A stretch of DNA of 64,000 nt from a bacterium (GTDB taxonomy: Bacteria; Desulfobacterota; DSWW01), in the NCBI GenBank assembly GCA_028277985.1, contig JANQFG010000277.1:62001-126000 (forward strand), given 5' to 3'. Made by a program: the position numbers and the translations under genes. Below are positions 60,779-63,939 of this stretch, piece by piece (position 1 is the first letter of the stretch; every line of letters begins with the position of its first letter). The notes beneath the pieces are model-generated. The model worked only from the letters and a program-made list of their open reading frames with translations, did no database searches and was not told the DNA's origin.

Positions 60779-62164
60779 TCAAGATGCGATCTGAAACTTT
60801 CGGAGCTTTCTCCAGAGGGTGGTCCGGCTGATCCCCAGTGCTGAGGCAGTCGCCTGGCGGTTCCACCGGTTCGCCTTGAGCGCCAGGAGGAGTTCTTCTC
60901 GTTCCATCTGCCTGGGTTCGTCTACGGGGGTGGTCGCTTCCCTGGGTGGAGGTGCCTCTTCCTTGTTTCGAAGCAAGTAGAGCGGGAAATGGCGAGGCTC
61001 GATCTGAGAGCTCTTGCATACGATCGTTGCGTATTCAAGGATGTTCTCCAACTCCCGTATGTTGCCCGGGTAATCATACCCCAGTAATACCTCTTCTGCA
61101 GCGGACGACAGCCCGTTGATGCCTTTCTGACGTTTGAGATTCAGTCTCTTCAAGAAATGCCTTATGAGCAGCTGGATGTCCTCCCTTCGCTGACGCAGGG
61201 GCGGGACCTCGATCTGCACCACGTTGATCCTGTAAAAGAGATCCTCTCGGAATCGACCCTTCCGGATCTGCTCGAACAGCTCCTTGTTCGTTGCCGTGAT
61301 GATGCGTACGTCCGCCTTGAGCGTCTCTGTGCTTCCGAGGGGCTGGTACTCTCCGTTTTCAAGCACGCGCAGAAGCTTCACCTGTATATCCAGTGGGAGG
61401 TCCCCGATTTCGTCGAGGAACAGGGTCCCCCCTTCTGCGAGGGCGAAACGGCCCGGCTTGTGGTGTCTGGCGTCGGTGAAGGCACCCTTTCGATATCCGA
61501 AGAGCTCCGACTCGATCAGGGTCTCCGGGAGGGCGCCGCAGTTGACGGCGATGAAAGGGCCTTCTTTTCTTCTGCTCAGCTCGTGAATGGCCCGCGCGAG
61601 GAGCTCCTTCCCCGTGCCGCTCTCCCCACTCAACAGGATCGGAGAATCGCTCAGGGCGAGGTCCTTCAGATGTCTCAGAATGGCGAGCATGCGGGCGTTG
61701 TTCGTTACGATGTTCTTGAAAGAGTACCGTTCCTCGGTCTCCATCTGGTAGGCCTTGATGATGGACAGATCGCGGAACGTCTCCACGGCTCCCACAATCT
61801 TCCCTTCTTTGTCCTTGATCGGGGCCGTGCTCACCGATACGGGGATCTGCCTCCCCCACTTGCTCGTGATGACTACCTCGAGATTCGAGATGTTCTTTTT
61901 CTGCCGCAAGGTCTGATCGAGGGGACAGGCGTCTGTTCCGCAAAGATCGGTCTGGAAGATGCTTCGACAGGGCCTACCGAGCACCTCTTCCTTGCTGTAC
62001 CCCGTAATCTGTTCTGCGGCGCGGTTGAACCAGGCGATCATCCCGTCCTTGTCCATCGTAATGATGCCGTCGACCACGTGGTCCAGGATCGTGCGGCAGG
62101 GCGCTGGACATTCCTTTTCCATGCAGTTCAACGCGTTTTCGAAGCAGTAGGCCGTGTTGTTCAC
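60779..62164 (-). CDS. PAS-domain sigma-54-dependent transcriptional activator (EBP-2)
   Basis: 461 residues from a GTG with GAGAGGGG 7 bases upstream. The more upstream ATGs lack ribosome sites and overlap a repeat. An N-terminal Cys-rich stretch (CFENALNCMEKECPAPC) leads to a PAS domain (IITMDKDGMIAWFNRAAEQI, with CGTDACPL). The AAA+ core is complete: GESGTGKELLARAI, the loop GAFTDA (variant of GAFTGA), GTLFLDEIGDLP and FREDLFYRINV. A Fis-type HTH ends it (ATASALGISRTTLWRKLRKF). It activates sigma-54 promoters in response to a PAS-sensed signal, possibly redox or metal through the cysteines. Paralogous to EBP-1 downstream. Confidence 0.92.
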   Translation of the reverse strand: MNNTAYCFENALNCMEKECPAPCRTILDHVVDGIITMDKDGMIAWFNRAAEQITGYSKEEVLGRPCRSIFQTDLCGTDACPLDQTLRQKKNISNLEVVITSKWGRQIPVSVSTAPIKDKEGKIVGAVETFRDLSIIKAYQMETEERYSFKNIVTNNARMLAILRHLKDLALSDSPILLSGESGTGKELLARAIHELSRRKEGPFIAVNCGALPETLIESELFGYRKGAFTDARHHKPGRFALAEGGTLFLDEIGDLPLDIQVKLLRVLENGEYQPLGSTETLKADVRIITATNKELFEQIRKGRFREDLFYRINVVQIEVPPLRQRREDIQLLIRHFLKRLNLKRQKGINGLSSAAEEVLLGYDYPGNIRELENILEYATIVCKSSQIEPRHFPLYLLRNKEEAPPPREATTPVDEPRQMEREELLLALKANRWNRQATASALGISRTTLWRKLRKFQIAS

Positions 62165-62233
62165 AGCGGGTCCCCTCTCCTGAGCAACGATTTGTCGTCC
62201 CATATGATACAAAATGAATCAAAATGTTGCAAC

Positions 62234-62377
62234 CCCGGTCACTGTATCAAAATTCCGTCTTCTTGGGCGACGTCGCCCCCCCTCTCTACTCTCCAGTGTA
62301 ACGCACTAAGGCTTCTGCTGAGGTATTGTGCGAGCAAAGTCGCCCTGCGAAGACGGAATTTTGATACAGTGACCGGG
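62234..62377 (+). repeat. Hairpin element copy 1: conserved core in 29-bp private inverted arms
   Basis: Outer arms 62234-62262 and 62349-62377 are perfect reverse complements over 29 bp (CCCGGTCACTGTATCAAAAT...). The interior is 86 bases. Its core (62265-62345) begins with the palindrome GGGCGACGTCGCCC and ends GCGAGCAAAGTCGCCC. The core is about 80% identical to the inverted core of copy 2, but the arms are unrelated to those of copy 2. Confidence 0.9.
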
Positions 62378-62538
62378 CGAGAGGCCCCGCCCCACCTCCC
62401 ACGGTTTGCTTCGTCGCCCCCGCCTTCCATGGGTGGCCGTAAGGTTGGCCCAGCGTCCTGTTCTGTCTGGAGGCCCCTCCCCGCGCACCGGGATAGCTGC
62501 TGGTGCGAGAAAAGCCTTCGGAATCACTGTCTTCAATC

Positions 62539-62596
62539 GGGGACAGCCACTCAATAACACGCTTCCTCGTTTTCGTATTAATTGGTGGCTGTCCCC
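62539..62596. repeat. GGGGACAGCCAC inverted repeat
   Basis: GGGGACAGCCAC (62539-62550) and GTGGCTGTCCCC (62585-62596) are a perfect 12-bp dyad with a 34-base AT-rich loop. Resembles REP-like palindromes moved by REP-associated tyrosine transposases, none of which is encoded here. Confidence 0.7.
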
Positions 62597-62734
62597 AGTT
62601 TCTCCAGTTTCTCAGTTTCTGGTGCCCAGTTTCTGCTGCTGCAGGTAGAGGGGTCGAGTGGGGATCTGCGACGCGAGATTGGCGGGTTCTTACGAGAATT
62701 CTTGTCGGAGTACCCCGAAAGCGGTCAAGGGTCT

Positions 62735-62887
62735 CAGTGTAGCCCATGGGGTCGATAAACGATTTGCGCCGGGCGACTTTGCTCGCACAGTATCTCAGCA
62801 GAGGCCTTCGCGGACTACAGGGGAGAGTAGAAACGGGGGGGCGACGTCGCCCAAGCAAACCGTTTATCGACCCCATGGGCTACACTG
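62735..62887 (-). repeat. Hairpin element copy 2: conserved core in 33-bp private inverted arms
   Basis: Outer arms 62735-62767 and 62855-62887 pair over 33 bp with one mismatch (CAGTGTAGCCCATGGGGTCG...). The interior is 87 bases. Its core (62771-62852) is the reverse complement of the copy 1 core with about 13 changes and one indel. As in copy 1, two to three unpaired bases separate arm and core on each side. Confidence 0.9.
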
Positions 62888-62937
62888 AAGAGCAGAATCC
62901 TTCTGGGGACGGCAAGCGTTGTTTCGAGCTAGCCCGC

Positions 62938-63939
62938 TTACGAGTCTTCTTCGATCATCTCCACCGATTCCTCTGCAACCTCTGCAACGTTCGGGTCCGG
63001 GTCCTTGCAGAGCTTCTTCAGTGCGGGCAGCGCTTTCGGATCCCCTATCTTGCCGAGCAGATCGGCGATGTCCCCACGCACCGAGGCATGCTCTGACTCG
63101 AGGTAGGGGAGAAGAGGGTCGACAAGTCGATCGAGACACCTCGGATCCGTTTCGAGCGCTTCCTCCATGGCGACGAGCAGGGCGATTCGTTCCTCGAAGG
63201 TGGATTCCCCCAGGTCGCTGGCCAGGAAACTGGGGTCGCCACCCCCTGCAATCCACTCTGCCGCCTCCAGGGCGCCCCCACCCTCTTTGATCTGTTTTCG
63301 GATCTTCTCGTGAAGAATCGATGTGGAATCCGCAGAGCCGAGGATCGAGGACAGCTTCTCCTCATCCAGGCCGCCTACGTAGCGTAGTTCCTGATCGATC
63401 AGGAGGGTCGGTACCGACTGTACGTTGTGCTGCTCCGCCAGGTCGGTGTGGAGCATCGCCTCGAATAGATGTGCCGACAGATTCGGCAGCTTCCTGGCAA
63501 GCGCATGAACCGTACGGACTGCGTGTGGGCAATTGGGGCAATGAGCGGAAACGAAGAGTAGCATCTCGTGGGGCGGTCCCGATTCCCCGGGCCCTGCCGA
63601 ACCGGCCTTCTCGGGGGCTGCTTCAGAAGCAGCGTCCCAGAGCAAATCTCGGAACACGGGTAGCTCCGGGCCTTCAGGCACGAAGTGATAGTGGACATGG
63701 GAGGAGGATCTCGTGGTCAGGGAGAGGGAAGGCAGGAAAGGCTGATCTCCGCCCTCCTCGGTTTCAAAGACAAGTCGGCCTCGTGCCTCTTTGGTGAGCG
63801 CCTCCACCCAGCCCTCCATTGCCTGGCGAGCCTTCTCCTCGCCGCCGTGGTGGTGCTGCAACGTCAGTGTCTCCGGCAGGGAGGAGAACGGCCCGTCTCG
63901 ATCGAGGCCGTTGGGCGCGGATGTGTCGGGAGTTTTCAT
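62938..63939 (-). CDS. Thioredoxin-fold protein with C-terminal HEAT-like repeats
   Basis: 333 residues. Residues 30-120 form a divergent first thioredoxin-like unit. A second unit has the redox motif CPNC (about 134-137; FVSAHCPNCPHAVRTV) and the cis-Pro segment VQSVPTLLID, as in glutaredoxin-like/PDO or AhpF N-terminal domains. Residues about 240-333 are HEAT-like helical pairs (LLPYLESEHASVRGDIADLL, GDPKALPALKKLCKDPDP). No signal peptide, so cytoplasmic. It may reduce disulfides in a partner bound by the HEAT part. Stands alone near the window end. Confidence 0.8.
   Translation of the reverse strand: MKTPDTSAPNGLDRDGPFSSLPETLTLQHHHGGEEKARQAMEGWVEALTKEARGRLVFETEEGGDQPFLPSLSLTTRSSSHVHYHFVPEGPELPVFRDLLWDAASEAAPEKAGSAGPGESGPPHEMLLFVSAHCPNCPHAVRTVHALARKLPNLSAHLFEAMLHTDLAEQHNVQSVPTLLIDQELRYVGGLDEEKLSSILGSADSTSILHEKIRKQIKEGGGALEAAEWIAGGGDPSFLASDLGESTFEERIALLVAMEEALETDPRCLDRLVDPLLPYLESEHASVRGDIADLLGKIGDPKALPALKKLCKDPDPNVAEVAEESVEMIEEDS

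Follow-up and report, generated by a model that had tools for sequence, protein, structure and literature searches.

The window analysed here is a stretch of 64,000 nt from a draft genome of the phylum Desulfobacterota (designated G000). Near its right end, a PAS/sigma-54 activator gene (60779-62212, minus strand) and a thioredoxin/HEAT-repeat gene (62938-63939, minus strand) are separated by an interval that contains two hairpin sequences (Table 1). As reported in the preliminary description, which was made from the letters of the window, the two lie in opposite orientation, each within inverted arms of its own. The arms of copy 1 are 100% complementary and enclose 86 nt; those of copy 2 are 97% complementary and enclose 87 nt. 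The cores, inverted relative to each other, are 82% identical in a gap-free alignment of 74 nt. Folding scores lie far below those of shuffled sequences (z -8.8 for copy 1 and -10.5 for copy 2, with none of 200 shuffles as good in either case). Copy 1 is devoid of the outer arms, about 50 bp long, of the full element (see below). The end of copy 2 adjoins the TAA (62938-62940) that terminates the thioredoxin/HEAT-repeat gene, as in many other members of the family, and nearly fits the stop-codon pattern described below. Between the copies, a different inverted repeat (GGGGACAGCCAC...GTGGCTGTCCCC, 62539-62596), conserved at the orthologous locus of the congeneric genome G002, may be a member of another, REP-like family of repeats; direct repeats, short and imperfect, occur around CCCAGTTTCTG at 62591-62639.

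Table 1. Components of the two hairpin copies, in window coordinates.
Feature	Position	Strand	Remark
Copy 1, left arm	62234-62262		29 nt, perfect complement of right arm
Copy 1, long-form core (TTGGGCGACGTCGCCC...GCGAGCAAAGTCGCCCTGC)	62263-62348	+	opposite (-) strand presumed to fold
Copy 1, right arm	62349-62377		
Copy 2, outer arm	62684-62733		decayed, alignable to 62889-62937 (global arm alignment); boundaries approximate
Copy 2, inner arm	62734-62767		34 nt, one mismatch against 62855-62888
Copy 2, long-form core (minus strand reads TTGGGCGAC...)	62768-62854	-	
Copy 2, second inner arm	62855-62888		
Copy 2, other outer arm	62889-62937		from global arm alignment

The element is not confined to these two copies. 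A search of the genome with the core alone returned 16 full and several partial copies. Nearly all the full copies carry complementary arms of their own, approximately 26-36 bp long, in keeping with the preliminary description; in two of them (L016 and L057) the arms have decayed. Two partial copies (L018, 1441-1500, and L019, 34-93) are interrupted at one shared position of the core by the same foreign sequence (ttgaaaaaagagtaacctacctc...), as though the hairpin repeat were a target for a second mobile element. A covariance model of the long core (R1) detected nothing in congeneric genomes at an E-value of 0.01 under strict filters, because the congeners carry a short core; a second model (R2) corrected this result. 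It was the ortholog of copy 1, found at the same place in G002 (contig C91) and endowed with a 40-nt core, that led to the much larger short-core family. With a covariance model built from 32 short-form copies, the search of the genome and its relatives that the preliminary description had proposed revealed the element dispersed in three congeneric genomes, with about 40 copies in G000, 110 in G001 and 73 in G002. None of 56 genomes from other genera of the phylum carried it under stricter filters, which leave weak copies elsewhere possible. A scan of 84,980 GTDB genomes for the core pattern gave 20 hits, none of them backed by the covariance model, and viral, phage and plasmid collections contained no match to the element. 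E-values of these purpose-built models are rough; all genomes are draft assemblies, and the loci analysed below are a subset of the copies.

The usual form of the family has a core of about 40 nt, the window cores being a long variant with some 46 extra nt. An intact element spans approximately 206 bp and is almost fully self-complementary, with the layout GTGGGGTGACcTGGAAATaTCGCTATGTTTC-...-GGTGCTGTCCcGGGTTCCCTCTCCGATTTGC around the core TTGGGCTCCGTC...AAGTCGCCCGGC. An arm consensus, GCAAATC(TCCGA)GGGAACCC-GGACAGCACCG, is clear in G001 and G002, where conserved outer arms extend the element to its full size. The near-complete palindrome ends in terminal inverted repeats (GTGGGGTGAC...GTCaCCCCAC; termini also given as GTGGGGTGAC...GTCACCCCAC). 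In G001, two or three elements are clustered in single intergenic regions, some of them in tandem (L094:1245-1735, L220, L222 and L232). The preliminary description held that the arms of the two window copies share no sequence. A comparison of one copy with the other almost bears this out, with matches at 12 of 29 aligned positions. Most copies in the congeners, however, share the same arm sequences, an outcome named beforehand as one that would refute the preliminary reading, and the arms of both window copies match the family consensus, at 16 of 32 positions for copy 2 (shuffle p 0.0006) and at 13 of 29 for copy 1 (shuffle p 0.03), so they are to be regarded as diverged relatives and not as independent sequences. 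Copy 1 differs from its G002 ortholog by six compensatory pair changes. The orthologous gap in G002 is without copy 2, the empty site there not being clean.

The hairpin element is mobile. The element at locus L140 of G001 is absent from the orthologous site of G002, where the flanks are joined between positions 149 and 150 of contig C424, and is absent from G000 as well (C239). Conversely, the L141 element of G002 is missing from both G001 (C279) and G000 (C50). Comparison with these empty sites, another of the checks originally proposed, identifies the whole palindrome as the inserted unit; together with the copy numbers, it bears out the idea that the element has spread. At L141, TA is present on either side of the insert and once in the empty G001 site. 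Insertion took place inside the TA of a neighboring gene's stop codon, which the element's terminal base restores. The element had been set apart from ordinary MITEs for want of direct target duplications; a TA duplication is seen at L141, the cleanest site, and none is evident at L140. Among 105 copies examined, stop codons of open frames of at least 100 codons (called simply as open frames) fall at offsets -82/-81 in 28, as opposed to 0-4 at other offsets, and a TA peak is found at the left terminus in 21. Hence about a quarter of the copies start exactly at the stop codon of the adjacent gene, a preference confined to one end of the element, and at two sites the element end itself supplies the neighbor's stop codon. 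Reuse of stop codons as landing sites allows elements to fill compact genomes while leaving the genes unbroken. At three sites occupied in two species (L089/L182, L167/L214 and L093/L220), the arms are not mutual best matches, which suggests repeated independent insertions at one stop codon. We assume that a transposase acting in trans moves the element. A search of the draft genomes for transposases of the DDE_3 family yielded a single gene, in G001 (L250), lacking the element's termini.

The family is short, non-coding and dispersed in many copies, bears terminal inverted repeats, and has occupied and empty orthologous sites. It fits best among the MITE-like repeats, as a new palindromic family of the same general kind as ERIC, Correia and RUP. 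Correia (NEMIS) elements of Neisseria are likewise small, palindromic and non-autonomous, with a proposed RNA hairpin, and their short and long forms differ by an internal stretch of about 50 bp, as against about 46 nt here (PMC2229807). The likeness is one of form and apparently not of sequence. Correia elements are known to contain an IHF site and to be processed by RNase III; comparable covariation of the arms is not described for them in the part of PMC2229807 drawn on here. RUP of Streptococcus pneumoniae, mobilised by IS630-Spn1, resembles the family in being small, intergenic and non-coding, with about 100 copies and a TA target; however, RUP copies are highly conserved and their termini match an IS of the same genome (PMC2229807), while hairpin-family copies have diverged and no such IS was found for them. 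ERIC/RU-1 and YPAL/RU-2 of enterobacteria are also dispersed, palindromic and intergenic, and can be co-transcribed as hairpins (PMC2229807). The present family was found in one genus only and shows no similarity to the ERIC copies of E. coli: blastn of the 207-bp element against 20,395 E. coli records, including all complete genomes, gave no match at E 1e-3. Group II introns, retrons, attC sites and IS605-type elements were considered less likely readings, no protein partner or matching ends having been seen; the empty sites resemble those of a TA-targeting element. No description of the family, or of its pattern of change in a bacterial mobile repeat, was found in the literature searched, which lay mostly outside subscription journals.

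Concerted evolution of the two arms is unusually clear in this family. In an alignment of 32 copies, two-sided changes occur in 33 of 35 arm pairs and amount to 233 cells, against 55.8 (about 56) after shuffling and 40-71 in slid controls; 88.9% of arm cells are paired. These data fit well the suggestion, made at the outset, of a structure that goes on pairing although the sequence of its stem can vary freely. Pairs of copies occupying the same site in different species give 36 two-sided versus 22 one-sided changes. Since stop codons are recurrent targets, these pairs were tested for vertical descent. Four of them (L001/L091, L179/L200, L176/L218 and L151/L191) are reciprocal best arm matches, L207/L184 becomes one once the outer arms are included, and L168/L170 comes close. 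The 36:22 count may thus be partly non-vertical, owing to the three same-site pairs without a best arm match; the four strict reciprocal pairs alone contribute 16 two-sided changes. A possible core inversion between species (L148/L221) was also examined, but the arms proved too different to settle it. Analysis of the core alone with RNAalifold gave no covariation.

The nature of the changes bears on how pairing is maintained. Restoration by way of tolerated G-U states would be expected to leave mainly transitions among the two-sided changes. Double changes in same-site pairs comprise 11 transitions and 13 transversions, close to the proportion in the flanks (273:275). This absence of a transition excess means that the two-sided changes carry no signature of G-U intermediates, which favours copying from arm to arm. 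Measured against the consensus, which also counts inherited subfamily differences as changes, there are 197 transitions and 406 transversions among the double changes, the figures for one-sided states being 59 and 40. Template switching has been described as both a maker and a keeper of hairpins (PMC8794818; PMC8604942). The correction of quasipalindromes or RNA stems by this route predicts that arms become homogenised, that compensatory changes span several bases and that stems lengthen, all of which is observed here, although the published cases concern RNA genes and coding genes of yeast (PMC8794818; PMC8604942) and not mobile repeats of bacteria present in a hundred replicate copies.

Other features point to a role for one strand. 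One-sided G-U wobbles favour the bottom strand over the top by 63 to 19 (p 1e-6), or by 50 to 19 once identical contexts are collapsed (p 0.0002). The first copies alone, with 9 wobbles on the bottom strand, 2 on the top and 16 other mismatches, gave too small a sample for a verdict, and the direction became clear with the larger set. The asymmetry suggests that one strand is the folding form, as RNA or single-stranded DNA (in copy 1 this would be the minus strand), and the folding strand may be under some selection. A 3x3 internal loop adjoining the core (TCC/TCC on the top strand, GGA/GGA on the bottom) is kept in at least 65 copies, three looking overwritten. Purine mismatches of the GGA/GGA type could stabilise RNA or single-stranded DNA.

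These observations could also be accounted for if the family were a functional RNA module, for example a 3'-end or processing structure of mRNAs made from the bottom strand, whose pairing is kept by purifying selection and compensatory mutations. The bottom-strand wobble excess speaks for it, as do the conserved purine-purine loop, the invariant inner helix (GGGC/GCCC), the prevalence of GG and AG among bottom-strand mismatches, the tendency to adjoin stop codons in a single orientation, and the folding of long-form copies, far better than that of shuffles. Yet double changes outnumber intermediates, with no transition bias relative to flanks. Moreover, copies with a stop codon on their left would transcribe the top strand, the one with fewer wobbles, and still the bias is unchanged (14:4 in these copies, 49:15 in the others); orientations relative to context are mixed. 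Copy 1 continues to pair despite loss of its outer arms in G000 and G002 and of the core center in G002. A search of Rfam 15 gave no match above gathering score, only spurious sub-threshold hits to eukaryotic microRNA hairpins such as any long hairpin gives. On balance, we regard a selected RNA as possible but rather improbable.

Far less plausible is the initial idea that insertion duplicates the neighboring strand in inverted form, the arms representing each copy's own target flank. Cores L006 and L007 are near-identical with very different arms, as this idea would have it. At both ends of several loci (for example L005, L142, L161 and L174), complementarity seems, by eye, to reach from a few to about 14 bp into locus-specific flank, so that sequence past one end recurs inverted past the other. 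Locus-specific complementarity of this kind appears, however, to be what template switching would produce in extending palindromes. The arms belong to a palindrome of about 206 bp whose consensus is common to the whole family, and they diverged in place later, orthologous copies at one site differing in their arms; duplication of the flank is largely refuted because both clean empty sites lack arm sequence. An assembly artefact or a chance inverted duplication unique to the locus, which the use of draft assemblies and the proximity of some copies to contig ends might bring to mind, can practically be dismissed: over 100 copies, set in different flanks, occur in three assemblies made independently, some positions are orthologous between species, and the shuffle controls speak against it as well.

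The account that we consider probable combines membership in a genus-restricted, palindromic MITE-like family with template switching as the main driver of arm pairing. Both hairpins would be copies of one non-autonomous element confined to the genus, which inserts preferentially next to stop codons, with TA duplication at one clear site. The window copies represent the long-core variant, copy 1 having lost its outer arms. After insertion, arms would drift approximately like the surrounding DNA while staying complementary, a change in one arm often being copied into the other, presumably by replication template switching within the hairpin, as in quasipalindrome correction. Two findings run against copying: the internal loop is retained in at least 65 copies, while unrestricted copying between the arms would be expected to remove it more frequently, and the wobble asymmetry, which RNA selection would predict, calls for an extra assumption under template switching. 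We nonetheless judge it more likely that template switching is the main driver, accompanied by some selection or strand-specific folding. That copies of the palindrome, even those without ends, are kept self-complementary by strand-specific, hairpin-templated DNA copying is put forward more tentatively, its likelihood falling somewhat short of even.

The origin and upkeep of long perfect stems has been called an open question (PMC8794818), and this family offers a good natural experiment on how perfect pairing is preserved in long hairpins. It supplies more than 100 copies, same-site orthologs in related species and empty sites; therefore, template switching can be tested against compensatory selection on DNA that is probably non-functional. 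If strand-specific copying does operate, mutation alone would yield RNA-like covariation over a hundred loci, and covariation would not suffice to demonstrate an RNA under selection. The family also cautions that a bacterial repeat may covary strongly with no functional RNA behind it.
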